This document shows, piece by piece, positions 20,602-34,912 of a DNA stretch of 61,615 nucleotides. The stretch comes from Plectonema cf. radiosum LEGE 06105 (GTDB lineage: Bacteria; Cyanobacteriota; Cyanobacteriia; Cyanobacteriales; Nostocaceae). A model generated the notes under the pieces. The model was not told the origin of the DNA. It saw nothing but the letters and a program-made list of their open reading frames with translations, and searched no databases. The stretch is taken from positions 1-61,615 of the forward strand of contig NZ_JADEWL010000025.1 of NCBI RefSeq assembly GCF_015207665.1, read 5' to 3'. Position numbers and translations under genes: made by a program. Within the stretch, counting starts at the first letter, position 1. Each line of letters starts with the position of its first letter.

Positions 20602-20615
20602 TTGATTGATTGATT
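20596..20615. repeat. GATT tetranucleotide repeat (five units)
   Basis: Five perfect GATT units overlap the stop codon of the small hypothetical gene; a change of one unit would shift its last codons. Confidence 0.9.
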
Positions 20616-21537
20616 CTATTCTATATTTAAATCAATCGAATAATACAAAGAGTATTTGTATACTAGTGCTTTGTCCCATTAATTCTAATGGATAATTGAT
20701 TGGTAGTGTCCGGGTCTGGCTCCTGGTGACAAAAAGCGCTCATGTTCACCCCCCCCAAAACTAATGCGATCGAGTACCAAGTTAACTGACACAATACGAC
20801 TGAAACTACTTTCTAATTCTGACACTACAAGTAGACCGCTCTTCAATGCAACCCAACAGTTTTAATTTACACTAGCTTCACATATGTGTAAATTTGATAA
20901 ATTATTTCAACTTAGTTCATAATACTTACGTATATCTTCTAATATGAGATTTAGTTATCAATTTAGCTATACAGGGCTGCTCAAAGTAAACATCTACCGC
21001 TACACGACTCGCGATCGCAATCTGAGGGCAAAGAAATGAGGCCAAATGCGTTACTCAAAGTAATTTTACTTATTACATTAGCTAGCAGTTATTAATTTAG
21101 GACTTACGCAACCGGCACATTTTCTTGCAACGGGTGGGTGCGTAGTTGAGAAAAATTTGAACGGTTCTATAAGACTTGTAGCGCCACGCAGCACCCGTAT
21201 CCACCAGACAATTGCGGCCATTCCTACAGTTAAACAACTAAATGATAATTGCCAGCCTTCAATAATAGTTACTAATTTATCAAAAATGTCATAATTTATA
21301 AAAACATTAACTGTTTTTTAAGATACTTGTTTTTCCCAGTGTAATCACTTATGCTGGAGGCATAAAATTAACAATAGATGATTAGAAAGGAAAGTTCTTA
21401 CAATGATATCTTCAACAGGAGATACTACTATTTCGGAAAAATCAATACTAGAAATTTGGTGGGTAATTCGTAATTCGTAGTGCGAGCTAGAAGTATGCCC
21501 TTCCGGGGCAGGCTACGCCAACGCACTACAAATATTT
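20616..21537. other. Gene-poor region with decayed repeats
   Basis: More than 900 bases without a good gene. A half-palindrome of the ATTAATT type lies at about 20661-20692. A GGACTTACGCAA element end is at 21101-21112. A short frame, 21403-21480 (25 codons starting MISSTGDTTISEKSIL, with AGAAAGGAAAG upstream), ends inside a GTAATTCGTAATTCG repeat and may be the stump of a lost gene. Confidence 0.5.
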
Positions 21538-21845
21538 AACCCATCATAATTAATGAAATGGAGTACTAGCCAAAGCATTTATTCTGAGGGGTACTTGGTC
21601 TAAATTTTCTGATTGATTTTTTAGTCCTATTTATAGGACTTATGCTATCAGACCGGGAATTTGATTCCCGGTCGGGTCTCGATAATAGCCTATCAAAATT
21701 AATGAAAAAGACTACTAGTGCTTTGTCCCATTAATTTTGAATGGTTATTTTTTCTCAAAATTGTCTAGAGACGTTATGTATAACGTCTCTACAGCACGTC
21801 GGTAGACGAACAAACCCCTCATAACTTATGTGGTGGAATACTAGT
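21538..21845. repeat. Palindromic repeat group upstream of lasso cluster 1
   Basis: Degenerate copies of a roughly 58-base inverted repeat lie at 21538-21592 and 21688-21747, with a half copy at 21813-21845. The idealised form is CCCCTCAAAATTAATGTGG, about 12 bases of centre, then its reverse complement. Between them lie a GACCGGGAAT hairpin element (about 21592-21685) and a GAGACGTTATGTATAACGTCTC palindrome (about 21768-21790). The last half copy runs into the psiB1 remnant. Confidence 0.8.
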
Positions 21846-22092
21846 ATCTGTAAAAAAAAATCAAATTTCTTCCGACCTTGGTGGTGAAGCAGTGAAACCA
21901 ATTCGTATTTCACATTATCTCTTAACTACTCAGGTGTTAAACAGCCGTTGTGCTTGTCTTTGCTAAATCACAGATATTACGAAACTTACTTAGTCAATTT
22001 GGATTGAATACTACAAAAGGCTTGTAATTAGTTATTTTACAAACCTTTAAAGATTTATTTCCTTAGCATCTCTCAAAGGAATCAGATTATGA
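21841..22092 (+). pseudogene. Fused remnant of lasso B1 (PqqD-like) and B2 (leader peptidase)
   Basis: The frame from 21841 reads LVSVKKNQISSDLGGEAV; QISSDLGGEAV is identical in B1 at 29.4 kb, with most base changes at third codon positions. From 21922 it reads LTTQVLN, matching LTTQILM of B2. After two frame changes it continues as WIEYYKR and VISYFTNL, then a stop, then RFISLASLKGIRL*, matching B2's WIKYQGY, VIGYLPDL and RYIQLPSLEGIKL*. The B1 C-terminus and the B2 N-terminus with its catalytic Cys are deleted, the B2 active-site His is replaced by Ser, and internal stops are present. The final stop still overlaps the C1 ATG as ATGA, exactly as in cluster 2. Confidence 0.9.
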
Positions 22093-24110
22093 GCGGTATC
22101 ATGGGTCTTTACTATCTGGACGCTCGTCCGGTGGAACAACAAAATTTAGAGCGAATGGTTGATACATTGGTTCATCGGGGACCTGATGGTGCAGATATTT
22201 GGGTAGATGGTTCTGTAGGTTTGGGACACCGGATGTTATGGACTACTCCCGAATCAATCATAGAAAAACTACCTTTAGTCAATCATACTCACGATATGGT
22301 TATCACTTGTGATTGCCGCATAGATAATCGTGAAGAGTTGATTGCTGCATTAGAGTTAAATAACAGTTCCTCCGAGCAAATTACCGATAGTGAGTTGATA
22401 CTGGCTGCTTATGAGAAATGGTGTGGAGAATGTCCGGAACATTTGCTAGGTGATTTTGTCTTTGCAATTTGGGATCAGCGAAAGCAGAGATTATTTTGCG
22501 CTCGTGACCATATGGGGGTAAAGCCTTTTTACTATTACTATCAACCTGGTAAGATATTTGCTTTTGGTAGTGAGATCAAAGCTTTATTGTGTTTGCCAGA
22601 TGTGCCGCAAAGACTCAATGAAATTAAGGTCGGGGACTATCTCGAATCAAATTTTCAAGATAAAGTCCATACCTTCTATCAAGATATTTTGCGTCTGCCA
22701 CCTGCTTGCAGTTTAACTTTGAATGAGAAAGGATTGCAAATTTATTCTTATTGGTCTCTTGACCCAGAGCGCGAATTGTGTTTAAAATCTGATGAAGATT
22801 ATGCCCAGGCATTGCAGGAAATCTTTGCTGAAGCAGTACGATGTCGATTGCGTAGCGCTTTTCCCATCGGTTCTCATCTAAGTGGTGGACTAGATTCTTC
22901 TGCTGTCACCTGCATGGCAAGCAAAATTTTGCAGGAAGAGAATCACACTTTACATACTTTCTCGAATATATTTGATAGAGTTGCTCAGTGTGATGAACGT
23001 CCTTTTATTGAAGCTGTACTTGCTCAAGGGGAAATGATTCCTCACTACGTCCACGGCGATCAACTCGGACCTCTATCAGACTTAGAGCGAATTTTTAAAT
23101 ATCACGAGCAAGTCGTTTCTGCTCCTACTCATTTCCTGATTTGGGGATTAAACAAGGCTGTTGCGAACAACGAAGTCAGAATTATATTAGATGGCTTTGA
23201 TGGTGATAATACTCTGTCTCACGGTGAAGGTTATCTGATTGAATTAATCAGGAAACAACAGTGGTCAACCTTTGCTCAAGAAGCCAAAGATTTGCACAAA
23301 CTTGTAGGTGTTTCACCACTCAAAACTCTTCGCTGTTATGGCTTTCCATACTTGGAAGAATTAGCACGAACTGGCAAATGGATCACCTTTGTTAAAGAAA
23401 TCAATCAGATTTCTCAGCATTTTGATATTTCACCCAAAAGACTTTTCTTAGATGGTGGATTTAAACCCTTATTACCTGAATCTGTGAAATCGCTGGTTCG
23501 CTTATTACGCGGAAATAACCAAAGTACTGACAAATCTATCATTAACCGTGATTTTGTTCGTCGGATTAATTTAAAAAAGCGTATTCAAGCTTTAGAAGGT
23601 AATCGTTCCACTCAACCATTTACAGAAAGAGAAAAACACTGGCGCAATATTACTTCAGGTATATTAACCCAAGGATTAGAGACATTAGATATTTACGCGG
23701 CAGCTTTTTCCCAAGAAGCCCGTCATCCGTTTATGGATAAAAGATTGATTGAATTTTGTTTGTCTTTACCTGCGGAACAAAAGCTCAACAAAGGATGGTC
23801 TAGATTAATAATGCGTCGTGCGATGAAAAATATTTTACCTGAACAAGTCCGAAACCGTCGCACCAAAGCTAATATGTCTCCTTGTTTTCGATATGGACTG
23901 CTCAATCACGATAAACACCTTTTGGAGCAAGTCATACAGAATCATCAGAAGAGCATCGAGGGTTATGTAAATACAAAAGTATTATCTAATTCCTACGAAC
24001 AATTACTTTCTACGAGCCAAATGGAATATCCTCCAAGTTCAACAGGTGTATCACCTTGGCAAGTAGCCATGTTTGCTCTGTGGTTGCATCACTCTGAACT
24101 CAAGCAGTAA
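22089..24110 (+). CDS. Lasso peptide cyclase C1 (asparagine synthase-like)
   Basis: A 673-residue relative of AsnB: an N-terminal glutaminase-like domain followed by an ATP-pyrophosphatase domain with LSGGLDSSAVTC (264-275). Residue 2 is Ser (MSGI), not the catalytic Cys of true glutamine-dependent synthetases, so it should not produce ammonia. In lasso biosynthesis this enzyme adenylates the acidic ring residue and closes the macrolactam. The AAAGGAA ribosome site lies 8-9 bases upstream. It is a paralogue of C2, with near-identical blocks in the first 150 residues. It is followed by precursor A1. Confidence 0.92.
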   Translation: MSGIMGLYYLDARPVEQQNLERMVDTLVHRGPDGADIWVDGSVGLGHRMLWTTPESIIEKLPLVNHTHDMVITCDCRIDNREELIAALELNNSSSEQITDSELILAAYEKWCGECPEHLLGDFVFAIWDQRKQRLFCARDHMGVKPFYYYYQPGKIFAFGSEIKALLCLPDVPQRLNEIKVGDYLESNFQDKVHTFYQDILRLPPACSLTLNEKGLQIYSYWSLDPERELCLKSDEDYAQALQEIFAEAVRCRLRSAFPIGSHLSGGLDSSAVTCMASKILQEENHTLHTFSNIFDRVAQCDERPFIEAVLAQGEMIPHYVHGDQLGPLSDLERIFKYHEQVVSAPTHFLIWGLNKAVANNEVRIILDGFDGDNTLSHGEGYLIELIRKQQWSTFAQEAKDLHKLVGVSPLKTLRCYGFPYLEELARTGKWITFVKEINQISQHFDISPKRLFLDGGFKPLLPESVKSLVRLLRGNNQSTDKSIINRDFVRRINLKKRIQALEGNRSTQPFTEREKHWRNITSGILTQGLETLDIYAAAFSQEARHPFMDKRLIEFCLSLPAEQKLNKGWSRLIMRRAMKNILPEQVRNRRTKANMSPCFRYGLLNHDKHLLEQVIQNHQKSIEGYVNTKVLSNSYEQLLSTSQMEYPPSSTGVSPWQVAMFALWLHHSELKQ

Positions 24111-24247
24111 TAACTGTCATTACATTATTTTTATTTCTTATATTTGCTCTATTTCTTATACGTACCATTATTAAAAATGGGTAGAATTATCCACTTGTGG
24201 GTAGCTACCCAGGAACACAAAACAAAACACTCAAAGGAATTAAACCA

Positions 24248-24430
24248 ATGAAAAAGTCCTACGAAGCACCAAAACTAACCAATCACGGTACCGTTAACTC
24301 GATTACACAAGCTAGTGTCAAGGGTTCACCCGTTGATACTGTTTTTGGAGAAGACGGTTCAATAATTGGCAACCTTACAGGTTCATTGGACGCTTGTACT
24401 TCTGGAGATTTAATCAATTGTGGTAAATAA
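24248..24430 (+). CDS. Lasso-type RiPP precursor A1
   Basis: A 60-residue peptide. The leader follows the lasso pattern YxxPxLxxxGxxxxxT: Tyr5, Pro8, Leu10, Gly14, Thr20. With Thr at -2, cleavage after Gln21 would release a 39-residue core starting Ala22-Ser-Val-Lys-Gly; the ring acceptor would be core Asp9 (Asp30). The tail holds two Cys (50 and 58) that could form a disulfide, and ends in Lys. I chose this ATG (AAGGAA site about 9 bases upstream) over the upstream frame. The core is much longer than known lasso peptides, so a true lasso fold is not proven. Confidence 0.85.
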   Translation: MKKSYEAPKLTNHGTVNSITQASVKGSPVDTVFGEDGSIIGNLTGSLDACTSGDLINCGK

Positions 24431-24472
24431 TGACTGTTAAGTAATTCTGAAGAAGTTTTGGTTAATCGATGT

Positions 24473-24547
24473 ATTTCGACTGCAACTCGAATGTACATCA
24501 AAATCTACCTCTAACAACTGAAGTTATTACCGAACAAGTTCTAATCT
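24473..24547. repeat. Direct repeat DR1 downstream of A1
   Basis: First of two roughly 75-base direct copies, sharing CGACTGCAACTCGAATGTAC, TACCTCT and AACAAGTTCTAATCT. It begins 43 bases after the A1 stop. Confidence 0.85.
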
Positions 24548-24589
24548 AATTTGATTGTAACAGTCAGACATTAAATACCCGCATCTGCC

Positions 24590-24645
24590 GTTGAGAGTTC
24601 AAAGTCTGAGTCAATTAAGTTTGATCAAAGACTTTGAAACTCAAC
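24590..24645. repeat. Long hairpin between DR1 and DR2
   Basis: GTTGAG-AG-TTCAAAGTCT pairs with AGACTTTGAAACTCAAC around a loop of about 20 bases, a strong 17-base-pair stem with a two-base bulge. It may act as a transcription or mRNA-stability element for A1, or be the core of a small element framed by the direct repeats. Confidence 0.7.
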
Positions 24646-24703
24646 AAAACAATATCGATGAATTCCTACCAATTTGCTCGATTAAGTCAGAGTAAGCCGT
24701 TGT

Positions 24704-24782
24704 TTATTCGACTGCAACTCGAATGTACACCAAAAACTTACCTCTGACAACTGAGCTTATTACCCCAACAAGTTCTAATCTG
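24704..24782. repeat. Direct repeat DR2 downstream of A1
   Basis: Second copy of DR1, offset by about 231 bases, with scattered substitutions. No coding frame is preserved across the pair, so it is not an obvious second precursor. Confidence 0.85.
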
Positions 24783-25182
24783 TCCTCAATATAGCATCAA
24801 TTAATTAACGTATTGGTGTGATTAAACACCTGTCGCTGCGGCATGAAGTCTTTTGTGGGAGTTAATTTCAGGCGTTGCTGCTTCATAAGTATGGATCAAA
24901 TTTGATAGATAACCGAAACCTGTGTAGAGATATTACAGTGTAACCTCTCAAAATCTAAATTCATACCCGGAGGAAGCAACGCCTAATTTTAACATCCTAA
25001 TTGACACACAAAAATATTATTTTTGTATAAAAAATCACAGCCAAATCGGCGTTGAAATTTGTTTTGTAATTATGGTAAAGCTTTAAAGCCAATTTATATT
25101 TTGTTAGATAGTTAGATTTATTGCTACCGACTGACTTACTCACTTTTGACTTATTAAGGAAAATGTAATTTAACGATTTATT
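24783..25182. other. Intergenic region between A1 and K1
   Basis: It contains an inverted repeat around AGGCGTTGCTGCTTC / GGAAGCAACGCCT (about 24870-24984), inside which sits one copy of the dispersed TTACAGTGTAAC element (24895-24970, minus orientation). The remaining AT-rich part precedes K1; a minus-strand frame at 24997-25218 has no support. Confidence 0.6.
24895..24970 (-). repeat. Dispersed TTACAGTGTAAC repeat, copy 1
   Basis: About 76 bases containing AACCGAAACCTGTGTAGAG, TTACAGTGTAAC and AATCTAAATTCATACCCGG. Related copies lie at 26282-26376 and 54918-54994 in the opposite orientation. Confidence 0.85.
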
Positions 25183-26118
25183 ATGTTCACCTACTTTGCC
25201 TATAATCTTCGTATTCACTCTGAAATTTTATTTCCCGAACTAATAACTTTTGATTGTGAATCAAATCGAACCGAAAAACTACCAGAAGTAATCTTAGAAC
25301 AGCGTGAAATCAATCATGCAGAGATTGAAAATGCTGATGGTGGTAATCGTTTTGTTGGGCATTTGGAAATTAATAAATCACAGTTTTGCAGATTTTTGGT
25401 AGAATTTGGGCGCAAAATTGTCATCGAACCTACCCCAGGAATAGCACAAGATATCATTCGTCCTGGGATTCTCGGTCCAATATTCAGTGTACTACTGCGG
25501 CAAAGAGGACTGCTGACTATCCATGCTAGTTGTGTTGCGATTGATGGGGAGGCTGTTGCATTTATCGGTCATTCCGGATGGGGTAAGTCAACTCTGGCTA
25601 ATGCTTTTTACAACCAAGGATATCCTTTGCTTACCGACGATGTAATGGCAATTCAAGTAAACGAACAAAGTGAAACACATCCGATTACTTTTCCTGCTTA
25701 CCCCTGTGTTAAATTATTACCCGATGCAGCCGCTAGTTTGGGATACGATTTTGATCAGTTAGCCGTAATTAACTCAGATTTACTCAAACGTCATAACACT
25801 CTTGCGGAAAGATTCGTGCAAAAGCCTTTACCTATTAAACGAATATACGCATTAGAAAAAATTGCAGCCCCTTATCATCAAGTGGAACCGCTTTCTTGTC
25901 AAAATGCACTTGTGGAATTAGTTCGTCATTCCCGTGTTACGAATCTATTGACTACTCCAGAATTCGTCAGCGCTCATTTGCATCAATGTACGCAACTCCT
26001 GAAAAAAGTACCCGTTTATCGTTTGAAAAGATACAAAGGCTTAACAGCACTTCCCGATTTAGTAAAACTGATAGAAGATGATGTTGCTAAAAATAATCGT
26101 GTAATATCCTATACTTAA
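25183..26118 (+). CDS. HPr kinase-like protein K1 of lasso cluster 1
   Basis: A 311-residue protein of the HprK/LasK type. LLTIHASCVAI (111-120), then Walker A GHSGWGKST (129-137) and the LTDDVMAI acidic pair (152-153) match HPr kinase cores; the N-terminal part is divergent. In some lasso clusters (paeninodin type) such kinases phosphorylate the Ser at the precursor C-terminus. A1 ends in Lys, so K1's target, if any, must be elsewhere in A1 or be A2. The HAS triplet replaces the HGS of K2. It lies 750 bases after A1 across repeat DNA, so it may have its own promoter. Confidence 0.85.
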   Translation: MFTYFAYNLRIHSEILFPELITFDCESNRTEKLPEVILEQREINHAEIENADGGNRFVGHLEINKSQFCRFLVEFGRKIVIEPTPGIAQDIIRPGILGPIFSVLLRQRGLLTIHASCVAIDGEAVAFIGHSGWGKSTLANAFYNQGYPLLTDDVMAIQVNEQSETHPITFPAYPCVKLLPDAAASLGYDFDQLAVINSDLLKRHNTLAERFVQKPLPIKRIYALEKIAAPYHQVEPLSCQNALVELVRHSRVTNLLTTPEFVSAHLHQCTQLLKKVPVYRLKRYKGLTALPDLVKLIEDDVAKNNRVISYT

Positions 26119-26183
26119 AAAACTGCTAATAATAAGCTAATTTAGGTACTTGTAATAAATAACTGATTTCAACATTCATATAG

Positions 26184-26271
26184 GACTTACGCAATATGTG
26201 GCCCAAACAGTTATTTTTGCCTAGGGGTAATTCATGAATTACCCCTACTCTCATTCGGTTTTGCGTAAGTC
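26184..26271. mobile_element. Miniature inverted-repeat element (MITE), about 88 bases
   Basis: Terminal inverted repeats GACTTACGCAA / TTGCGTAAGTC flank a body with an internal perfect palindrome AGGGGTAATTCATGAATTACCCCT split around CATG. Non-coding; ends of the same type are common among cyanobacterial insertion-sequence-derived miniature elements. A solitary end is at 21101-21112. Confidence 0.85.
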
Positions 26272-26281
26272 ATGTCATATT

Positions 26282-26376
26282 CCGGTGTTGCAAAATCTGA
26301 GTATGAATTTAGATTTGGAGACGTTACAGTGTAACGTCTCTACAGAGGTTTCGGTTATCCATAAAATATCTGTAAC
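26282..26376 (+). repeat. Dispersed TTACAGTGTAAC repeat, copy 2
   Basis: Contains GTATGAATTTAGATTTGGAG, a perfect GAGACGTTACA / TGTAACGTCTC palindrome and CGGTTATCCATAAAAT. It lies directly upstream of the exporter gene and may have displaced or supplied its promoter. Confidence 0.85.
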
Positions 26377-26448
26377 ACATAGATTTTGCTCAAAACCCGA
26401 CTTGTGATGATTGATGATATTTCTGTATTAATAAAAACTATATAAATT

Positions 26449-28266
26449 ATGCAAGTAGGCAAAAAAATCAAAGAAAAATTACAAAGTACGCAGCGTCTAT
26501 TGCCTGCTTTGCGATTAGTATGGCAAAGTAGCCCTCGTTGGACAATCGCCCGCGTAATCATCCTTGTGATTCAAGGTGTACTGCCAGTAATCTCAATTTA
26601 TCTCGCCAAATTAATTATAGATACAGTCGCTGCCAGCCTCACCACTGCCGATAAAGCCGCAGCTTTTAATAATGTGATATTTTTTGTTGTCTTAGCAGCA
26701 GCAGTCACTTTATTAACTAACCTGGCTAACTCCCTCGCCCAATTAGTTACTAGCGCTCATTCCCAACGAGTAACCGATTATATGCAGGGAATAATCCAAG
26801 CCAAATCAATTGCAGCCGATTTAGAGTACTACGAAAATCCCGTATACTACGATGTATTGCAAAGAGCGCAACAAGAAGCACCTTACCGACCTCCCCAAAT
26901 CCTCAATCGTTTGGCAGATGCTGGACAAAATGCGATTTCTTTGATTGGGATGATTACTTTGTTACTGTCGCTGCACTGGGGAATACCGGGTGTTCTGTTT
27001 ATTGTTTCCCTTCCAGCGATGTTAGTACGGGTGAAATATTCTCGGATTTTGTATCGCTGGCAGCGAAAAGTTACACCAATGGAGCGTCAAGCAGGATACA
27101 TCGGCTATATGCTGACGGTAGACCAATTTGCTAAAGAAATTCGTCTATTCAACTTGGGTAGTTACTTTAGTCAGTCCTATCTTCGCATCCGCCGACAGAT
27201 ATATAAAGAAAGTCTATCTATATTAACCGGACGCTCTTTAGCTAACTTTACTGTAGAGGCGATCGCCGGTATTCTCATATTTATAATCTATTCCTATATC
27301 ATCTACCAAACTATTAATGGTGTGCTGCGTTTGGGGGATTTAGTTCTGTACTATCAAGCCTTACAACGGGGACAGGGTAATATTAAGGGTTTATTGAACA
27401 GCTTATCTGCACTTTATGAAGATAACTTGTTTCTAGCAAATCTCTACGAATTCCTCGACATTAAACCCAAGTTAATTGACCCACCAAACCCCAAACCGAT
27501 TCCTCATCCGATGAAAACTGGGATTGAGTTTGAAAATGTGGGTTTTCAATATTCTACAACTACCCGTAAAGCGCTGAGAAATATTAATCTGACAATTAAA
27601 CCAGGAGAAGTAGTAGCCTTAGTCGGGGAAAATGGTTCTGGTAAAACGACTTTAATTAAACTTTTATGCAGACTGTACGACCCCACATCAGGCAGAATTA
27701 CCATTGATGGTATCGATCTAAGTCAATTTAAAACAGAAGAATTACGCCGTCAAATCAGCGTGATTTTTCAAGACTATGCGAAATATCATTTTACTGCCCA
27801 AGAAAATATTTGGTTAGGAAACATTGACTTACCACCGCACAGCGACAGCATCATTGAAGCGGCTCGTCGTTCTGGTGCGGATGATGTAATCACGAAATTA
27901 CCCAAAGGCTACGATACTATTTTGGGTAAATTATTTGACAAAGGCGAAGAACTTAGTATCGGTCAGTGGCAGAAAGTTGCTTTAGCGCGGGCATTTTTGC
28001 GAAACTCTCAACTAATTGTGTTGGATGAACCCACTAGCGCAATGGACCCCAAAGCCGAGTATGAGGTATTTGAAAAGTTTCGTCAATTAATTAAAAATCA
28101 GTCCGCGATTTTGATCAGTCATCGTTTATCTACCGTGAAAATGGCTGACCGAATATACGTAATGGATAATGGAACAATCGTCGAAAGTGGTACCCACAAC
28201 GAACTGATGGAATTAAAGGGTACTTATGCTCATTTATTTGAAATTCAAGCAAGTCAGTATATGTAA
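26449..28266 (+). CDS. ABC exporter D of the lasso island
   Basis: A 605-residue half-transporter: membrane domain with about six helices (30-300), then an ATPase with Walker A VGENGSGKTT (392-401), Walker B LIVLDEPTSAMD and H-loop SHRLST. The signature is LSIGQ (502-506) in place of LSGGQ, a variation seen in some RiPP exporters. There is no N-terminal C39 peptidase domain, so leader removal must be done by B2. It is the only ABC exporter in the two lasso clusters and probably exports both products and gives self-protection. A 330-base spacer with a MITE and a second repeat precedes it. Confidence 0.9.
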   Translation: MQVGKKIKEKLQSTQRLLPALRLVWQSSPRWTIARVIILVIQGVLPVISIYLAKLIIDTVAASLTTADKAAAFNNVIFFVVLAAAVTLLTNLANSLAQLVTSAHSQRVTDYMQGIIQAKSIAADLEYYENPVYYDVLQRAQQEAPYRPPQILNRLADAGQNAISLIGMITLLLSLHWGIPGVLFIVSLPAMLVRVKYSRILYRWQRKVTPMERQAGYIGYMLTVDQFAKEIRLFNLGSYFSQSYLRIRRQIYKESLSILTGRSLANFTVEAIAGILIFIIYSYIIYQTINGVLRLGDLVLYYQALQRGQGNIKGLLNSLSALYEDNLFLANLYEFLDIKPKLIDPPNPKPIPHPMKTGIEFENVGFQYSTTTRKALRNINLTIKPGEVVALVGENGSGKTTLIKLLCRLYDPTSGRITIDGIDLSQFKTEELRRQISVIFQDYAKYHFTAQENIWLGNIDLPPHSDSIIEAARRSGADDVITKLPKGYDTILGKLFDKGEELSIGQWQKVALARAFLRNSQLIVLDEPTSAMDPKAEYEVFEKFRQLIKNQSAILISHRLSTVKMADRIYVMDNGTIVESGTHNELMELKGTYAHLFEIQASQYM

Positions 28267-28267
28267 C

Positions 28268-28329
28268 AAGTCGGGTTTTTTTGAGCAATATCTCTAACAA
28301 ACTCACAAAAATTGCTAAAAACCCGACTT
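28268..28329 (+). terminator. Long hairpin after exporter D
   Basis: AAGTCGGGTTTTT pairs with AAAAACCCGACTT, and inside it GAGCAAT faces ATTGCT; it begins two bases after the stop codon. Likely the transcription end of cluster 1. A half copy (GCTCAAAACCCGACTTG) lies upstream of the exporter gene near 26388-26404. Confidence 0.7.
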
Positions 28330-28427
28330 CTGAGGATTGTCATCTTGCTCGCTAGCCAATAGCGAGCTTTCCGGTATGTCCTGGCGGACACGCTTCCAAG
28401 ACCGCACTACGAATTACGAATTTATTA

Positions 28428-29126
28428 CCCCCCAAAATTAATGACATAGACCAATAGTGCTTCACCACATTAATTTTGATGGGTTTTCTCGCAAACCGAA
28501 CCGGGAATCAAATTCCCGGTCTAATAGCACAAGTCCTATGAATAGGACTAAAAAAATCAATCATAAAATTTCGTTCAAGTACCCATTAAAATTAATGTGG
28601 TGGATCAATACTACCCACCACATTAATTTTGAGGAGTATTACTTCAGTCCTATTTATAGGACTTTCGCTATTAGACAGGGACTTACAGTCCCTGGCGGAT
28701 TAAATATCCACCCCTCAAAATTAATGTGGCAGAGTAATAGTAGTCCATGTCATTAGTTATGATGGCTTAATTAATATAACCTTACTAGTAGTCGGATTTT
28801 ACCAGAAATCTTGTAGAGACGTTATATATAACGTCTCTACATTACGTCAGTAGACAAACAAAACCAATCAAAACTAATAAAAAGGACTAATAGTGGTCCA
28901 CCACATAAGTTATGAGGGGTAATCAATGTAATATTGTAGGTTGGGCTGTTCGCGCAAGCGTTGCGAAGCAAAACGTAGTGGAGCCTCGGCACCCGCGTTG
29001 GGTTGCGCTATGTCCTGTCGGACAGGCTTCGCCAACGCTTAACCCAACCTACGAAGAGGTATTTTAACTCCTCAAAATTAATGTGGCGGACTAATAGTAG
29101 TCGATTGCATTAATTCTGATGGGTTA
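28428..29126. repeat. Array of five palindromic repeats with nested hairpin elements
   Basis: Five roughly 58-base imperfect palindromes (about 28428-28484, 28581-28637, 28709-28768, 28863-28920 and 29066-29126) share arms ACCCCTCAAAATTAATGTGG and the complement, around a CTAATAGTAG-like centre. The spacers are different hairpin elements: GACCGGGAATT / AATTCCCGGTC, AGTCCTAT / ATAGGACT, GAGACGTTATATATAACGTCTC and the GTAGGTTGGG element. It fills the gap between cluster 1 and B1; a 99-codon frame inside it (28457-28756) is repeat translation. Confidence 0.88.
28936..29052. repeat. GTAGGTTGGG inverted-repeat element, copy 1
   Basis: Ends GTAGGTTGGGCT and AACCCAACCTAC are inverted; the body has internal GCG-rich hairpins. 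A shorter copy is at 50462-50529. Non-coding, mobile-looking, of a type common in cyanobacterial genomes. Confidence 0.85.
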
Positions 29127-29390
29127 AGGGAGTGCGTTAACCTCACCCTCCGGGTGAACACGTAGCGTGCGCGGTCTTCGTAGTATGATAGGACATAACG
29201 CAAACGTCCCGCCCGCTATTGGCTAGCCGAACCCTCGCTGATGAAAATGATTTTATAAAGACGCGACAACGTAATTTTAAAGAATATATGAAGTGTAAAA
29301 TAAAACATCGTAATGTCACTATACTAGGGATTATATTTAATACAGCAGAGCAAACAGCAGTAACCAATTAGCTTTTTTCAGTGAAAGAAA

Positions 29391-29708
29391 ATGAGTTATC
29401 CACAACCCGACCAACACGAAATCGTAGAATCATCATTAGTAGTAGTAGCTGAAGACCAAATCTCTTCGGATCTTGGCGGTGAGGCAGTTATTTTGAATAT
29501 GAAGAGCGGAATTTACCACGGTTTGAATGAAGTGGGTGCGCGAATTTGGAATTTGCTCGAACAACCCAAAACCGTAAAAGAAGTCAAACAGGTACTTTTG
29601 GAAGAATACGAAGTTGAAGCAGAAGCTTGCACAAATGACCTTTTCTCACTGCTGAATAATTTAAAAGCCGCAGGGTTGATTAAAGTAATAAATGAAACTG
29701 CTGCGTAA
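29391..29708 (+). CDS. PqqD-like lasso B1 (leader-binding RRE protein)
   Basis: A 105-residue winged-helix protein of the PqqD family. QISSDLGGEAVILN, SGIYHGLNEVGARIWNLLEQP and the C-terminal LLNNLKAAGLIKV follow the RiPP recognition element pattern. Such B1 proteins bind the YxxPxL part of the precursor leader and deliver it to B2. It is the only intact B1 in the window and so should serve both A1 and A2. Its stop overlaps the B2 start by 17 bases, which implies translational coupling. Confidence 0.92.
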   Translation: MSYPQPDQHEIVESSLVVVAEDQISSDLGGEAVILNMKSGIYHGLNEVGARIWNLLEQPKTVKEVKQVLLEEYEVEAEACTNDLFSLLNNLKAAGLIKVINETAA

Positions 29709-30129
29709 GTTTTGGAATCTGAGAAAGGTTGATTTTTACTTTCTATTTGTGACATTTTTGTTACTAGGAGTAATTAGGTTAGGGTTGTGGTTACTAGAGT
29801 TTCGCATTTTATTAAAAATAGTAAATAAACTGAACACGAAAAAATTGCCACTCCCTAATGCCACTCTGGGTAAAATTATTTGGGCTGTGAATGTTACAAC
29901 CCGCTATATGCCAGGTGGAGCAAAATGTTTGGCAAGGGCTTTAACTACACAAATTTTGATGAATCATAGTAGTTTTTCTCCCGAATTGTGCATAGGTGTT
30001 GCGAAAGGACACTCAGGAGAATTAGAAGCCCACGCTTGGATTAAATATCAGGGATATGTTGTCATCGGTTATCTACCGGATCTACCACGCTACATTCAAC
30101 TACCATCCCTCGAAGGAATTAAATTATGA
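29692..30129 (+). CDS. Lasso B2 leader peptidase (transglutaminase-like)
   Basis: A 145-residue protein with an N-terminal membrane-associated hydrophobic stretch (about 15-36) and a transglutaminase-fold cysteine protease domain. Cys79 in GGAKCLARAL and His114 in EAHAWIKY are the expected catalytic pair; the acidic third residue is not obvious, Asp130 in YLPDLPRY being the nearest candidate. B2 cleaves the leader after the Thr at -2 region. The ATG lies inside the B1 end, and the TGA stop overlaps the C2 ATG as ATGA. It is the only intact B2 here, so A1 must also depend on it. Confidence 0.92.
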   Translation: MKLLRKFWNLRKVDFYFLFVTFLLLGVIRLGLWLLEFRILLKIVNKLNTKKLPLPNATLGKIIWAVNVTTRYMPGGAKCLARALTTQILMNHSSFSPELCIGVAKGHSGELEAHAWIKYQGYVVIGYLPDLPRYIQLPSLEGIKL

Positions 30130-32036
30130 GCGGCATCGTAGGTATTTATTACCTTGACGGTCGTCCTTTAGACCGCGAAAACTTAACAAAAATGGTTGAT
30201 ATATTGGCGCATCGCGGACCAGATGGTGCAGATATCTGGGTTGATGGATGCGTCGGTTTGGGACACCGGATGTTGTGGACTACTCCTGAGTCTCTGTTTG
30301 AGAAGCTGCCTTTGATTAATCAAAGGGGTGATTTAGTAATTACAGCAGATGCTCGCATAGATAATCGTGAGGAATTGATAGCTGCTTTACAGATAAATAA
30401 TCGTCCTGCTGATAAGATTGCAGATAGCGAGCTGATATTGGCAGCTTACGAGAAATGGGGCGAAGATTGTCCCCAGCATTTACTAGGTGATTTTGCATTT
30501 GCGATTTGGGATGAGCGTAAACAGGTATTATTTTGCGCTAGAGACCATATGGGTGTGAAGCCTCTATACTACTATCAATCAGATAAATTTTTAGTGCTTG
30601 CTTCTGAAATAAAAGCACTGTTTTGTTTGCCAGAAGTACCGCGCCAATTGAATGAACTCAAAGTTGCTCATCACCTGACACTATTTTTTGAAGACAGGGT
30701 AAATACCTTCTACAAAGATATACTTCGGTTAGCGGCAGCCCATTCATTAACCGTAAACTCAAGAAGGTTAGAGGTTAAATGTTACTGGAAGTTAGACCCG
30801 AAGCGCGAGATTAAGCTTAATTCCCATCGGGAGTATGTTGAAGCTTTTCGCGAAATCTTTACCGAAGCAGTACGTTGTCGTCTACGTAGCGCTTTTCCTG
30901 TAGGGTCTACTTTGAGTGGTGGACTTGATTCCTCTTCCATTACCTGTACGGCACGTATGCTGTTAGCTGAATCGGGAAGAAAACCGCTGCATACTTTTTC
31001 AGCAATTTTCCCTAATTTACCTCCTGATGCGCTGCAATGGATTGACGAACGTTATTTTATCAATGCCGTACAATCTCTAGGAGGCTTTGAGTTTCATAAT
31101 ATCCATGCAGACTATCTTAATCCTCTGGTAAAACCGCTTTGGCAAGATGATGAGCCAGTTTATTCTCCAAATTTGTATATTCATTTAGCACTTTACGAAT
31201 CTGCACAATCAAACGGTGTTCGTGTATTTTTGGATGGAATAGATGGGGACAGTACGATTTCTCATGGATGGGCGCGTCTGACAGAACTGATCTATGGAGG
31301 TAAATGGAGAACTTTACGTAATGAGATGAAAGCGGCTTCTGAGTTGTCTGGAATATCTCAGCAGCAACTTCTATGGAAATATGGTTTTCAAACCCCTATC
31401 CAAGAACCTGCGTTACGCCTTTGGCAAATATTACAACAAAATCCGAAATCTACTTTTACATTTAATCAAATCATTAATGATACGTTTTCTCAACGAATCG
31501 GATTAGCACAAAACATCCAATCCTTAACAAAGGAAGTTCCATTTCTAAATTTTAGTGCTAGACAGATACATTCTTCAGGGTTGAATGCTGGTATTCATCA
31601 ATATGTTCAGGAATTGGCTGATAAAGTTACTGCTTCTCATTGCCTAGAAGCTCGTTATCCATTTTATGATAAACGACTGATTGAATTTTGCGTAGCTCTA
31701 CCTTCATCCCAAAAATTTCGCCAAGGTTGGACGCGAATAATTTTACGTCAAGCAATGAGAGATATTCTACCTCCACAAGTGCATTCGCGCACCGGCAAAG
31801 GAAGACTAAGCTTCAATTTTCAAGACAAATTATTAAAGTATGAGCAAAAAACTATAGAAAGGGTATTTGAAGAAGCCAATCAATTAAATAAGTACGTGAA
31901 TTTATCAGCACTTCACACAGCTTATCATCGTTACGCGGCTCATCCTTTACAGACACAAATAAAGGTAGATGCCATTGCTGTATTCTGTGCGGTAACGCTA
32001 TCTCAGTGGTTGAATCAAGCAAATCTCAATACTTAA
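30126..32036 (+). CDS. Lasso peptide cyclase C2 (asparagine synthase-like)
   Basis: A 636-residue AsnB-like protein. As in C1, residue 2 is Ser (MSGI), so no glutaminase nucleophile is present. The ATP-pyrophosphatase motif is LSGGLDSSSITC (263-274), with conserved RLIEFC and acidic residues further on. It should form the ring of A2. The N-terminal 150 residues are very close to C1 (for example HRGPDGADIWVD and GLGHRMLWTTPES are shared); the C-terminal halves, which contact the precursor core, diverge more. C2 is about 37 residues shorter. Translation is coupled to B2. Confidence 0.93.
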   Translation: MSGIVGIYYLDGRPLDRENLTKMVDILAHRGPDGADIWVDGCVGLGHRMLWTTPESLFEKLPLINQRGDLVITADARIDNREELIAALQINNRPADKIADSELILAAYEKWGEDCPQHLLGDFAFAIWDERKQVLFCARDHMGVKPLYYYQSDKFLVLASEIKALFCLPEVPRQLNELKVAHHLTLFFEDRVNTFYKDILRLAAAHSLTVNSRRLEVKCYWKLDPKREIKLNSHREYVEAFREIFTEAVRCRLRSAFPVGSTLSGGLDSSSITCTARMLLAESGRKPLHTFSAIFPNLPPDALQWIDERYFINAVQSLGGFEFHNIHADYLNPLVKPLWQDDEPVYSPNLYIHLALYESAQSNGVRVFLDGIDGDSTISHGWARLTELIYGGKWRTLRNEMKAASELSGISQQQLLWKYGFQTPIQEPALRLWQILQQNPKSTFTFNQIINDTFSQRIGLAQNIQSLTKEVPFLNFSARQIHSSGLNAGIHQYVQELADKVTASHCLEARYPFYDKRLIEFCVALPSSQKFRQGWTRIILRQAMRDILPPQVHSRTGKGRLSFNFQDKLLKYEQKTIERVFEEANQLNKYVNLSALHTAYHRYAAHPLQTQIKVDAIAVFCAVTLSQWLNQANLNT

Positions 32037-32116
32037 TTTTCTTAGTTAAATTAAGAGTTAATTGGAACTTTTGGGTTCTACACAACTCCAAAGCTTCTAT
32101 GTTTTGCACAAATTAT

Positions 32117-32216
32117 TTGAATTTATATTGTTTGAACTTATATTAAGCACTATTTAAAAGTGCGTCTTTTGTTCAGTTATCTGAATTTATATTTAAGCAC
32201 TTATTTCAAAGTGCAA
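32117..32216 (+). promoter_or_regulatory. Two hairpin-forming repeats upstream of A2
   Basis: GAATTTATAT followed by AAGCACTATTTAAAAGTGC occurs at 32117-32163, and a related GAATTTATATTTAAGCACTT...AAGTGC at 32183-32214. Each can fold as GCACT / AGTGC. They lie between the C2 stop and the A2 ribosome site and may raise or time precursor expression. Confidence 0.45.
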
Positions 32217-32255
32217 CTACTTCATTTTGTCAATTTACTTAGAGGACAATCAATC

Positions 32256-32438
32256 ATGGCTAAGAATTGGAATGTACCCCAGTTAACTACCTTTGGTTCT
32301 GTAGAAGAGCTAACACAGGTAAAATTTGCAGGTTCTGACGATGGAACCGCATTAGACATCGATGGGCCTAACAATAATACAGGTGTGATCAGCATTGGTG
32401 ACCAATTTACTGGTATTACATTAGTTCCTGTTTCGTAG
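32256..32438 (+). CDS. Lasso-type RiPP precursor A2
   Basis: A 60-residue peptide with Trp5, Pro8, Leu10, Gly14 and Thr20 in the lasso leader pattern (Trp in place of the usual Tyr). Cleavage after Gln21 would leave a 39-residue core starting Val22-Lys-Phe-Ala-Gly, with core Asp7 or Asp8 (residues 28-29) as ring acceptor; Val as first core residue would be unusual. The last residue is Ser, the position modified by HPr-kinase-like enzymes in paeninodin-type lasso peptides. AGAGGA lies about 10 bases upstream of this ATG; an upstream in-frame start at 32160 lacks such a site. Confidence 0.85.
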   Translation: MAKNWNVPQLTTFGSVEELTQVKFAGSDDGTALDIDGPNNNTGVISIGDQFTGITLVPVS

Positions 32439-32478
32439 TTGAAATTGAATTAGTTTTAGTTTTTTAAACGTTTAAATC

Positions 32479-32523
32479 GAGGAAATCATAAAAATACTAA
32501 CTTAGGCTTTCTATGATTTTCTC
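32479..32523 (+). terminator. Hairpin between A2 and K2 (first)
   Basis: GAGGAAATCATA pairs with TATGATTTTCTC (one G-T pair). Its place just after the precursor suggests partial termination or mRNA protection, giving more A2 than K2 mRNA. Confidence 0.55.
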
Positions 32524-32591
32524 TTCTTTACGAGTAATAAAAATCTAAATACTATTTCAATTACTTAATAGTAACTTGCTATTAATTCCAC

Positions 32592-32621
32592 GGGGAGTTA
32601 GTCTTTTGACTTAAACTCCCC
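32592..32621 (+). terminator. Hairpin between A2 and K2 (second)
   Basis: GGGGAGTTAGTC and GACTTAAACTCCCC fold around TTTT with a two-base bulge. There is no run of T after it, so attenuation or mRNA stabilisation is as likely as full termination. Confidence 0.5.
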
Positions 32622-32660
32622 ATTCTCTAGAAAAATTATCCAACCAATAAGATAATCGAT

Positions 32661-33587
32661 ATGCAAAGTAAAAATATTTACTATGCTTATGGTTTAACCA
32701 TACACTCCGAAATCTGTATACCAGAATTTGTTTGTGCAGAGCTAGATGCAGTTGCAAGCGATGTTACCGTATGTGTAAAACACGGCATTTCCCTTGATAA
32801 TTATCTGGCTTCAGAGATTCTTAATCAATACGGCTATCTAAATATAACCCTTAAAACGGCAACAGTTTTTGTACAAGGTATGGGTCTCATCTTCGTTGAA
32901 GATGGGAATAAAATTGTTATCATTCCTCAACCAGATGCTTCTGAAGAAATCATTCGCCTTTACCTTGTAGGAACGGTTATGGCAATCCTGCTCTATCAAA
33001 GGGGCTTGTTAGTTTTACATGGAAGTGCAGTTGAGATAGAAGGTAATTGTGCAATTTTCTTAGGTGCATCTGGTGCAGGTAAATCTTCCACAATAGCTGC
33101 TCTTAATGCTCATGGATATTCAATTATTGCCGACGATGTAGCAGCAGTCAATACAACTAAAAAACCTAATACTGTATATCCTGCCTTTCCGCAAATCAAG
33201 TTAGGTTCAGAACTTTGTACCTCTTTAGGTTATGATTTTGATTCGCTGCATTTTTTAGGTTTAGAAGAAAAGCGCGGCTACCGTTTAAAGCAAGGCTTTA
33301 ATCGAACACCATTACCAATTAGACGTATCTATACCCTTGCTTTTGGTGAAGAATTTAGCATTACCCCGCTCAAACCACAAGAAGCAGTCATCGAACTAAT
33401 ACGCCACTCTCGTCCTACAACGTTGTATCATAATGGTGGTGCCTCTCACTTTTTACAATGTGCGGCTTTAGCTAAAGAGTGTACTATTCATCGTCTGGTA
33501 CGACCTCGCAACCTGTCATTGTTGCCGGAGTTAGTTAAATTAGTTGAGGAACATGTTGCGTCTGATTTAGCTGCAACTATAGTTTAA
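32661..33587 (+). CDS. HPr kinase-like protein K2 of lasso cluster 2
   Basis: A 308-residue HprK/LasK-type protein: LLVLHGSAVEI (116-126), Walker A GASGAGKSS (135-143) and the IADDVAAV acidic pair (158-159). It is a paralogue of K1, with the same layout including LPIRRIYTL and AVIELIRHSRPT. In paeninodin-type clusters such kinases phosphorylate the precursor C-terminal Ser; A2 ends in Ser, so A2 is a plausible substrate. A nucleotidyltransferase-like gene follows, which could extend the phosphate. The reaction itself is an inference. Confidence 0.87.
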   Translation: MQSKNIYYAYGLTIHSEICIPEFVCAELDAVASDVTVCVKHGISLDNYLASEILNQYGYLNITLKTATVFVQGMGLIFVEDGNKIVIIPQPDASEEIIRLYLVGTVMAILLYQRGLLVLHGSAVEIEGNCAIFLGASGAGKSSTIAALNAHGYSIIADDVAAVNTTKKPNTVYPAFPQIKLGSELCTSLGYDFDSLHFLGLEEKRGYRLKQGFNRTPLPIRRIYTLAFGEEFSITPLKPQEAVIELIRHSRPTTLYHNGGASHFLQCAALAKECTIHRLVRPRNLSLLPELVKLVEEHVASDLAATIV

Positions 33588-33627
33588 GTGAGAAATTTCT
33601 AAATAAATTGGCGCTTTATTACCACTA

Positions 33628-33713
33628 CTACACAAACAAAGTCCACCTGCGTGGACTATATCAAATAACCCGCGTAGGCGGGTTTTGCCTGTGTAGCTGC
33701 GACTTCTAGTCGC
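33628..33713. repeat. Hairpin-rich element between K2 and N
   Basis: CTACACA at 33628 and TGTGTAG ending at 33696 are inverted ends; inside are GTCCACCTGCGTGGAC (33641-33656) and AACCCGCGTAGGCGGGTT (33667-33684), and just outside is GCGACTTCTAGTCGC (33699-33713). A small non-coding repeat that may also act as a terminator for K2. Confidence 0.8.
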
Positions 33714-33781
33714 CATTTTAAATTAATAAAATTAAATTCTAAATAAAATAGTAAAAATTATTAAAACCAATTATTACACTT

Positions 33782-34912
33782 ATGAAAACTTTATCTAAAC
33801 TCGATACCAAAAACCAATTAATCAATACTTGTCCTGAAATAGAATTACTTCTATCTTGCCTCAACCCCGATATCAATAATGCCATAACAGAACGCATCAA
33901 AACTTTAATTAAACAAAATATAGATTGGCAATATTTAACCCAAACAGCAGATAGACATGGGGTGTTATCCCTAGTGTATTCTCGTCTCAATAATATTTGT
34001 CCACAAGCTCTACCAGAATCAGTTCTAAATCAATGGCGCAGAAATTTTCAATATGTTGCCCAACGTAACTTATTTTTAACAGGAGAATTAGTTAATCTTC
34101 TCAAGTTATTAAAAGAAAAAAATATCGTAGCTCTACCTTATAAAGGTCCAATTTTAGCTAGTTTAATTTACAAAAATGTAGCCTTACGACGCTTCGGGGA
34201 TTTAGATATTATCGTGCAAGAAAAAGATATTTTTGCAGTCAGAGAATTACTGATAGCTCAAGGATATCTACCCAAAATAGAAATGACTGACGCGGAGTTA
34301 GTGAAATATCTAAACTCTAAAACCGAACATACTTATGATTTTATTCATAACGATAAAAACGTCTTTTTAGAAATTCACTGGCGAATTGCACCGAAGTATA
34401 TTACTCCTATCGCTGCGAAAGATTTGTGGGAAGATTTAGAACCTTTTTCTCTTGCTGGTACAACTATAAATAATCTACCTTTAGAATGTTGGCTACCAAT
34501 CCTTTGCGTGCATGGTTCCAGACATATGTGGGAAAGACTATCATGGCTGTGCGACATTGCAACACTGATTCATAAAAACCCAGATATAAATTGGGAAAAA
34601 GTAGTCCAAAAGGCTAATCTTTGGGGTTGTCAACGAATGCTATTCTTGGGACTATTCATGTCTCATGAATTATTTGGAGTTGACTTACCACCAGAAATTT
34701 GGCAGCAAATGAAGAAGGTTGAGCCTATCATAAAAGGTATTGTTCCTCAAGTATATCAACAGCTTTTTGCTGAAGTTAGAACTTCCGATAAATTTATGGG
34801 AAGAACGTTTTATCATATTCAGGTCAGAGAACGTTTAAACCATAAGATTTTGTATATTCAATCTTTTCTTTACTGGTTGGTAAAGGGGAAAAAGGAGTTG
34901 GGTGAGGGGTAG
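33782..34912 (+). CDS. Nucleotidyltransferase-family protein N of lasso cluster 2
   Basis: A 376-residue protein of the NTP_transf_5 type. The active site RRFGDLDIIV (136-145; GDLD 139-142) is the GD(x)D pattern of this superfamily, preceded by ALPYKGPIL and followed by FLEIHWRI. Similar genes stand beside HPr-kinase-like genes in several lasso clusters; in the pseudomycoidin cluster the pair has been linked to further modification of a phosphorylated peptide. Here it follows K2 and is absent from cluster 1. Its role on A2 is inferred from context; it could instead act on an unrelated substrate. Confidence 0.82.
   Translation: MKTLSKLDTKNQLINTCPEIELLLSCLNPDINNAITERIKTLIKQNIDWQYLTQTADRHGVLSLVYSRLNNICPQALPESVLNQWRRNFQYVAQRNLFLTGELVNLLKLLKEKNIVALPYKGPILASLIYKNVALRRFGDLDIIVQEKDIFAVRELLIAQGYLPKIEMTDAELVKYLNSKTEHTYDFIHNDKNVFLEIHWRIAPKYITPIAAKDLWEDLEPFSLAGTTINNLPLECWLPILCVHGSRHMWERLSWLCDIATLIHKNPDINWEKVVQKANLWGCQRMLFLGLFMSHELFGVDLPPEIWQQMKKVEPIIKGIVPQVYQQLFAEVRTSDKFMGRTFYHIQVRERLNHKILYIQSFLYWLVKGKKELGEG

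Follow-up and report, generated by a model that had tools for sequence, protein, structure and literature searches.

Two adjacent lasso peptide clusters of Plectonema cf. radiosum LEGE 06105 are likely a duplicated operon in which a shared chassis carries two product cassettes, with a single leader-binding protein (B1), a single leader peptidase (B2) and a single exporter (D) used by both. The locus lies in a stretch of 61,615 nucleotides (NCBI RefSeq contig NZ_JADEWL010000025.1, positions 1 to 61,615 of the forward strand; hereafter the window), which is contig C271 of a 7.6-Mb draft genome of 323 contigs. Both cyclase genes of the window look like natural chimaeras, since the 5' part of each groups with residents of the genus and the 3' part with other lineages, and the two sets of cyclase (C), precursor (A) and kinase-like (K) genes look like cassettes of other origin placed on a resident chassis.

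Organization of the locus

The genes are arranged in the order psiB1B2-C1-A1-K1-D (cluster 1) followed by B1-B2-C2-A2-K2-N (cluster 2):

21799-21894, plus strand: psiB1, remnant of a gene for a PqqD-type RRE (recognition element of ribosomally synthesized and post-translationally modified peptides, RiPPs); aligns with B1 residues 2-33
21922-22086, plus strand: psiB2, leader-peptidase remnant with in-frame stops; aligns with B2 residues 84-144
22089-24110, plus strand: C1, lasso cyclase, open, 673 aa; NF033535, 1017 bits (cut-off 525)
24248-24430, plus strand: A1, precursor, 60 aa; NF033528, 41.7 bits (cut-off 33)
25183-26118, plus strand: K1, HPr-kinase-like tailoring enzyme, 311 codons; weak kinase matches under curated cut-offs
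26449-28266, plus strand: D, ATP-binding cassette (ABC) exporter
29391-29708, plus strand: B1, RRE; NF033536, 81.7 bits (cut-off 80)
29692-30129, plus strand: B2, transglutaminase-like leader peptidase; NF033537, 98.7 bits (cut-off 33)
30126-32036, plus strand: C2, lasso cyclase, 636 aa; NF033535, 847 bits (cut-off 525)
32256-32438, plus strand: A2, precursor, 60 aa; NF033528, 28.2 bits, under the cut-off of 33; leader motif present
32661-33587, plus strand: K2, HPr-kinase-like tailoring enzyme; weak kinase matches under curated cut-offs
33782-34912, plus strand: N, nucleotidyltransferase-like, assigned to the resident chassis; PF14907, 215 bits

Open reading frames and family scans bear out this order as given in the first-pass annotation, as well as its statement that cluster 2, with the gene content B1-B2-C2-A2-K2-N, has no exporter. 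Each cluster was also said to have its own precursor, cyclase and HPr-kinase-like gene; the genes are present, although the kinase similarity of the K proteins is weak and A2 scores under the precursor cut-off. The Asn-synthetase-like cyclase expected of a lasso cluster is represented by both C1 and C2, each above the NF033535 cut-off, and the expected RRE and peptidase by intact genes in cluster 2 only, cluster 1 having remnants. Corresponding proteins of the two clusters are 51% (C1/C2), 38% (K1/K2) and 34% (A1/A2) identical. The A1 leader is of the Tyr type (YEAPKL), with cleavage predicted by eye at TQ/A and Asp9 as the predicted acceptor; that of A2 is of the Trp type (WNVPQL), with Val as the first core residue and Asp7 or Asp8 as the candidate acceptor, also by eye. 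A lasso precursor is expected to have a Y/WxxPxL leader, Thr at -2 and an Asp or Glu acceptor at one of core positions 7-9. A C-terminal Ser ends A2 and is absent from A1. Inspection by eye of the three frames of 24430-25182, between A1 and K1, revealed no second copy of A1. The non-coding DNA upstream of the two clusters (21535-21850 and 28409-29125) contains several similar stretches with ~71-84% identity.

Apparent cyclase mosaicism and probable cassette exchange

The DNA of cluster 2 is similar to that of three relatives, Rivularia sp. T60_A2020_040 (genome G005, locus L053), Richelia sp. SL_2_1 (G004, L038) and Calothrix parasitica NIES-267 (G001, L036), from B1 and B2 into the 5' part of C2; the similarity breaks off at 30938-30953 and returns at 33721-33769, shortly before N. 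Protein identity between window cluster 2 and L053 is 86% for B1, 89% for B2, 97% for C residues 1-130, 98% for D and 91% for N, and 43% for C from residue 170 to the end, 14% for the A core and 42% for K. Control pairs without such a step were 77-93% (L037/L071) and 93-98% (L050/L069) identical throughout. Outside the genus the same step was found in L049/L068 (C 93 then 41%, K 38%, D 96%) and in L064_c2/L066_c2, a pair compared for C only and not for K, D or N (93 then 52%). In L026/L042 the identity of C falls from 93 to 48%, and D (62%) and N (38%) differ too, so more than the cassette differs there. Among 30 pairs at least 90% identical in C codons 1-130, identity in the remainder of C was below 60% in 12, at least 80% in 17 and between these values in one; nine of the 12 low-identity pairs are within the genus of the window.

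Phylogenetic trees separate the two parts of each cyclase. For C codons 1-130 both window cyclases group with the resident genus (support 99/94), and grouping with the donors was rejected for C1 (type 1, p = 4e-45) and C2 (type 2, p = 4e-7) by approximately unbiased (AU) tests, in all of which the clades were named once earlier trees had been seen, a choice for which the p-values do not allow. This segment was used because sliding identity put the step near codon 150, the choice being made afterwards. The 3' parts of C1, C2, L053 and L038 each fall with a different distant group. That of C2 joins L056, L058-L061 and L065 in a group of seven rows (support 99), and that of C1 joins L022-L029 and others in a group of 11 rows (support 98); resident grouping was rejected for the C2 set (p = 2e-48), as was grouping of C1 with C1 of L036 (p = 8e-5). 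In the K tree, K2 joins the donors found for the 3' part of C2, and a grouping with the residents was rejected (p = 0.003). B2 (support 98), N (support 99) and B1 (support 90) fall with the residents; placing them with the donors was rejected at p = 3e-94 for B2, 4e-53 for N (with two donor rows) and 5e-4 for B1. A probably moved together with C and K, as judged from its position and Trp- or Tyr-type leader and not from a tree. The junction in C is not sharp. Informative sites place the cut at codons 120-132 in C2, 131-132 in C1, 159-166 in L038 and 225-229 in L053, and the approximate junctions are codons 130-170 of C1 (~22480-22600) and 120-170 of C2 (~30480-30640).

The first-pass annotation described two clusters complementing each other, which misses that one resident chassis (B1, B2, the 5' part of C, D and N) appears to carry two foreign C-A-K cassettes.

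Exporter D and the fate of cluster 1 in the genus

Eight genomes of the genus, the window genome included, were searched. In G002 and G006 the locus is a single unit B1-B2-C-A-K-D-N, which is likely the ancestral layout; G003 had no match to D (E ≤ 1e-150) nor to B2 (E ≤ 1e-5). In the Rivularia and Richelia genomes the flank upstream of the locus is 91-95% identical to the window, and window positions 20607-26059 are replaced by a scar of ~270 bases, followed by the remaining K1 tail, D and then an exporter-less B1-B2-C-A-K-N in which N of the Richelia genome is split across two frames. The D proteins are 98% (Rivularia) and 97% (Richelia) identical to window D. In cluster 1 of C. parasitica, C1 is open, the 5' part of B1 is broken, B2 is frame-broken and K1 is interrupted, while the frames of D and cluster 2 are open. 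The G007 genome is 84% complete and in short contigs; in it D is preceded by broken pieces of B1, B2 and C1. The ratio of nonsynonymous to synonymous change (omega), obtained here and below from simple pairwise Nei-Gojobori estimates, was 0.039-0.075 for D in 10 of 10 pairs from five genomes, and 0.044 for the pair L053/L038 that shares the cluster-1 scar. Since D is kept and constrained in relatives in which cluster 1 is gone or broken, its use by cluster 2 is well supported by the comparison. A search of the window genome for a spare exporter revealed one exporter matching D at E ≤ 1e-150 and no second.

Cluster 1 of the window was confirmed to be without an intact leader-binding protein and peptidase. 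The psiB1 and psiB2 alignment scores were each reached in none of 1000 dinucleotide shuffles, and psiB2 contains stops. The psiB1 piece is also matched by a profile of 54 B1 sequences, window B1 included (15.2 bits); the psiB2 piece was not reported by the B2 profile. B1 residues 34-105 and B2 residues 1-83 were unrecognisable upstream of C1.

Loss of B2 in loci with two cyclases

Seventy-eight loci were gathered by means of C, of which 27 (L073-L099) were excluded as distant Asn-synthetase relatives (best identity 23-36%) and 51 (L022-L072) were examined together with the window, 52 in all. Eight contain two cyclases and 44 contain one; of the latter, L023, L027 and L047 have too little upstream DNA and were not counted, leaving 41. 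A cyclase without an intact B2 in cis was found in 7/8 two-cyclase loci vs 1/41 one-cyclase loci (Fisher p = 7e-7, a value that overstates independence since the B2-less clusters are few and partly related). The former are the window, L029, L036, L043, L048, L052 and L064, with L066 the exception; L052 was scored as B2-less for a B2 remnant (profile positions 3-40) directly before C in ~320 bases of upstream sequence. Both B1 and B2 are present in 40/41 one-cyclase loci, and L070 is without B2.

Whole-genome searches covered ten genomes chosen because they contain such loci. Two cyclases exceed the cut-off in nine of them, and seven of the nine (G001, G009, G010, G011, G012, G013 and G014) have exactly one B2, so that no second supplier of that family is known there. 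G008 and G015 have two B2 genes, the second in G008 lying megabases away. In the remaining genome, G016 (L070), a single cyclase exceeds the cut-off, and the sole B2 is on another contig. The window genome has two cyclases and three B2 genes.

B-less clusters from three Rhizonema genomes, with no B2 before C, had omega values of 0.19-0.20 for C and 0.18-0.27 for K, and two B2-less Calothrix clusters a value of 0.15 for C, compared with 0.09-0.15 for C and 0.14-0.21 for K in complete clusters. The Rhizonema clusters include L023 and L027, with 492 and 615 bases upstream that contain no B2, the single B2 of each genome being beside the other cyclase. These estimates indicate that the B-less Rhizonema clusters are under purifying selection and not dead.

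In an order-wide sample of 120 genomes, in some of which only 8 cyclase candidates were scored, a cyclase at E ≤ 1e-120 was found in 16. All 13 one-cyclase genomes have at least one B2 match. In one of them, G072 (L176:5273-5727), the only B2 match is divided between two overlapping frames, perhaps through a sequencing error. Among the three two-cyclase genomes, G030 has one B2, and G070 and the window genome have three each. Cyclases exceeding B2 are thus rare in the broad sample (1/16), and the strong pattern comes from the loci gathered by C. The B2-less cyclase of G030 is on a different contig from the complete cluster and is the sole cyclase in its stretch, with B1 on the other strand; it is therefore a second one-cyclase locus without B2 besides L070, outside the 49 counted.

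B1 and the two leader types

Popov et al. (2026, PMC13381572) report that one Trp-type and one Tyr-type RRE differ at two positions (Gly42/Gln79 in PbaB1, Asn33/Asp70 in LppB), that PbaB1 G42N/Q79D keeps the Trp-type ligand and gains the Tyr-type ligand, and that the actinobacterial FusB1 is promiscuous. Window B1 aligns with PbaB1 (9x90, E = 7e-15) and has Asn42 and Asp79 at the discrimination positions, not the conserved Gly at position 42 of a paeninodin-like RRE; Gln79 is less conserved among paeninodin-like RREs. Among 54 B1 proteins the second position is Asp in 44/44 clusters with Tyr-type leaders and Glu or Gly in the six other clusters with Trp-type leaders, which are related and therefore represent few independent events; for three B1 proteins no leader was found. 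Asn/Asp together with a Trp-type leader occurs in the window alone. This is most simply read as a resident B1 of the Tyr type that would be well suited to A1 and now faces a cassette-borne Trp-type precursor.

At other loci carrying the cassette type of window C1, a protein of ~400-430 aa with a C-terminal B1-like (PqqD) domain adjoins D (L022:16018-17250, L024:14512-15765, L026, L028, L029, L043 and L066). It showed a weak phosphoribosyltransferase match in the two cases that were family-scanned, and the window has none beside D.

Other lasso-type genes in the window genome

Two genes encoding B2-N fusions are on contig C138 (C138:75297 and C138:89608), and two further PqqD/B1-type genes are over the Pfam cut-off (C138:96817 and C6:4433). 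They lie near divergent cyclases with a best stretch of 280-300 bits (cut-off 525), the B2 parts of the fusions are 31-32% identical to window B2, and the genes look like another lasso-like group. A search of the genome for spare B1/B2 genes thus revealed divergent B1/B2-type genes, none of which looks dedicated to cluster 1.

The C138 fusions (L018:13195-14919 and L019:9545-11275) are similar, lie ~14 kb apart and each precede a divergent cyclase; only near the second (L019) was there a B1 that exceeds the Pfam cut-off. On C6 (L020:4166-4708, minus strand) a single 181-aa frame combines a PqqD-type RRE with a lasso leader and a short core on the C-terminal side of the protein, scoring 57.6 bits with NF033536 (under its cut-off of 80, over the Pfam cut-off) and 22.8 with the leader family NF033521 (cut-off 19). 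As predicted from these matches, it is a natural RRE-precursor fusion beside a divergent cyclase. On contig C38 (L173:2731-3705 and 8060-8998) there is a third K-like gene, which shares 33% identity with K1 across 208 residues; an ABC transporter gene lies a few kb from it, and no cyclase was found within the 9-kb stretch.

Proposed model and alternatives

The pseudogene, the mosaicism, the conservation of D and the pattern of B2 loss are features of the sequences themselves. In the model proposed from them, the chassis would consist of B1, B2, D and N together with the first ~130-170 codons of each cyclase gene, and a cassette of A, K and the 3' part of C. From an ancestral unit that was probably B1-B2-C-A-K-D-N, a second B1-B2-C-A-K would have come to lie between D and N, after which the redundant B1/B2 upstream of C1 decayed. 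Cassettes may have been replaced by recombination with the left edge in the conserved 5' part of C and the right edge between K and the next chassis gene. The single intact B1 would bind both leaders and present them to B2, which would cleave both, A1 being processed in trans; C1 and C2 would each close, and K1 and K2 each modify, their own core, and both products would be made. N may add to a phosphorylated end, by analogy with the pseudomycoidin cluster as described in PMC8498205, and D would export both products.

The first-pass annotation had proposed that one B1/B2 pair and one exporter serve both precursors. For the exporter, the part concerning cluster 2 is the well-supported one, and export of both products is the proposal of the model. 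Service of cluster 1 in trans by the window B1/B2 is supported indirectly, because B2 loss is nearly confined to two-cyclase loci, B-less clusters remain constrained and the B1 residues fit the Tyr-type leader; relatives thus lend support to the shared pair, although in this strain cluster 1 could be decaying. Comparison of layouts among related genomes likewise favors sharing but recasts the complementing clusters as a chassis with cassettes.

Several results weigh against a shared chassis with exchanged cassettes. Besides the naming of AU-test clades once earlier trees had been seen, a DNA tree of C codons 1-276 that held C1 with the donors scored 10 log units higher (p = 0.63), so a donor grouping of C1 was not excluded on these codons; for C2 the donor grouping was rejected on them (p = 6e-4). 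The DNA trees omitted L070, which is too distant. Resident and donor groupings of C2 could not be told apart in quick protein trees of codons 1-270, where both constrained trees beat the free tree. L048, L052 and L064 may share one loss of B2, and the window and L036 are related. In B1 of the two B2-less Calothrix clusters there are 2 synonymous and 7 nonsynonymous changes, which are too few to judge and give a hint of relaxation. According to PMC13381572, LppB (Asn/Asp) tolerates Trp in its own leader and does not bind the Trp-type precursor PbaA, so the Asn/Asp pair is not sufficient, and recognition of A2 by B1 does not follow from it. The window genome also contains other B1/B2-type genes. 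Finally, cluster 1 is broken or nearly gone, with D kept, in the four other same-genus genomes that retain part of it, and cluster 1 of the window may therefore be on the same path.

This last observation favors the main alternative, that cluster 1 is a decaying relic in which D alone is used (by cluster 2), A1 is never matured, and C1, A1 and K1 are intact for lack of time. Such decay must be considered, yet is less likely: C1 (673 codons), A1 and K1 (311 codons) are open though B1/B2 are mostly lost, and the end branches of the C1 3' part (0.30) and K1 (0.49) are not longer than those of L024 (0.37 and 0.75), a locus with B1 and B2. In addition, the cassette type of C1 differs from that of cluster 1 of C. 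parasitica, and the Rhizonema clusters without B genes remain constrained. It is improbable that B1/B2 activity for cluster 1 is supplied by the lasso-like clusters of C138 and C6 and not by cluster 2; the two B2-N fusions and two PqqD-type genes, one of them fused to a precursor, could serve as a source, but the low identity of their B2 parts to window B2, the scores of the nearby cyclases far under the family cut-off, and the one B2 in total in 7/9 two-cyclase genomes argue otherwise. Least credible of all is an origin without recombination, in which the 3' part of C, A and K evolve very fast on a conserved remainder. Faster change is expected of parts that face a variable core peptide, and the junction is not sharp, but the identity of the remainder of C is bimodal (12/30 vs 17/30 pairs) and the 3' parts group with different distant lineages, holding the residents together being rejected as given above (p = 2e-48).

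A shared chassis with two cassettes thus remains the preferred reading for the window. It is also fairly likely that lasso loci of the Nostocales generally have a plug-in character. A general chassis would gain cassettes made up of A, K and the 3' part of C when homologous recombination takes place in the conserved 5' part of C, with chimeric cyclases as the outcome; where chassis lie in tandem, a redundant B1/B2 or D would then be lost, since each would act in trans on any cassette.

Comparison with known systems

Clusters of the paeninodin/pseudomycoidin type have the full gene set A, B1, B2, C, D, K and N, all of which are represented in the window. Unlike those clusters, the window combines two C-A-K sets with a single intact B1/B2 pair, a single D and a single N; its cyclases look mosaic, and its cores are long. 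The substrate of the paeninodin type is a C-terminal Ser, found in A2 and not in A1; PMC8498205 describes phosphorylation of this residue by K and also B2-N fusions, and the window genome likewise has such fusions on C138. The adjacent RiPP clusters studied in Bacillota (PMC13381572) resemble the window in having neighbouring clusters, Y/WxxP leaders and PqqD-type RREs. The two RREs of that pair are reported to have evolved to exclude each other's precursors, whereas the window has one Asn/Asp RRE and two leader types. Among the matches listed from the open-licence literature (titles and abstract openings), no description was found of cassette exchange in lasso cyclases or of B1/B2 sharing between lasso clusters.

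If the model is true, B1, B2 and D are generalists, cyclase specificity sits in residues after ~130-170, and the locus is a case from nature in which lasso products are exchanged while the chassis stays fixed, and indicates where a chimeric lasso cyclase tolerates a junction. One locus with one B1, two opposite leaders and two cyclases would then allow direct tests of how promiscuous RREs, leader peptidases and exporters are. Genome mining that proceeds cluster by cluster will label such loci incomplete when the missing parts adjoin.

Cyanobactin pathways, also of cyanobacteria, combine conserved machinery with exchanged core-coding segments of the precursor; the exchange in the window takes in most of the cyclase and the kinase as well. 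The parts of the window locus are known lasso genes, and what appears new relative to the literature matches listed is that a single intact B1/B2 pair, a single D and a single N would serve two C-A-K cassettes, together with the probable origin of cyclase chimaeras by cassette exchange.

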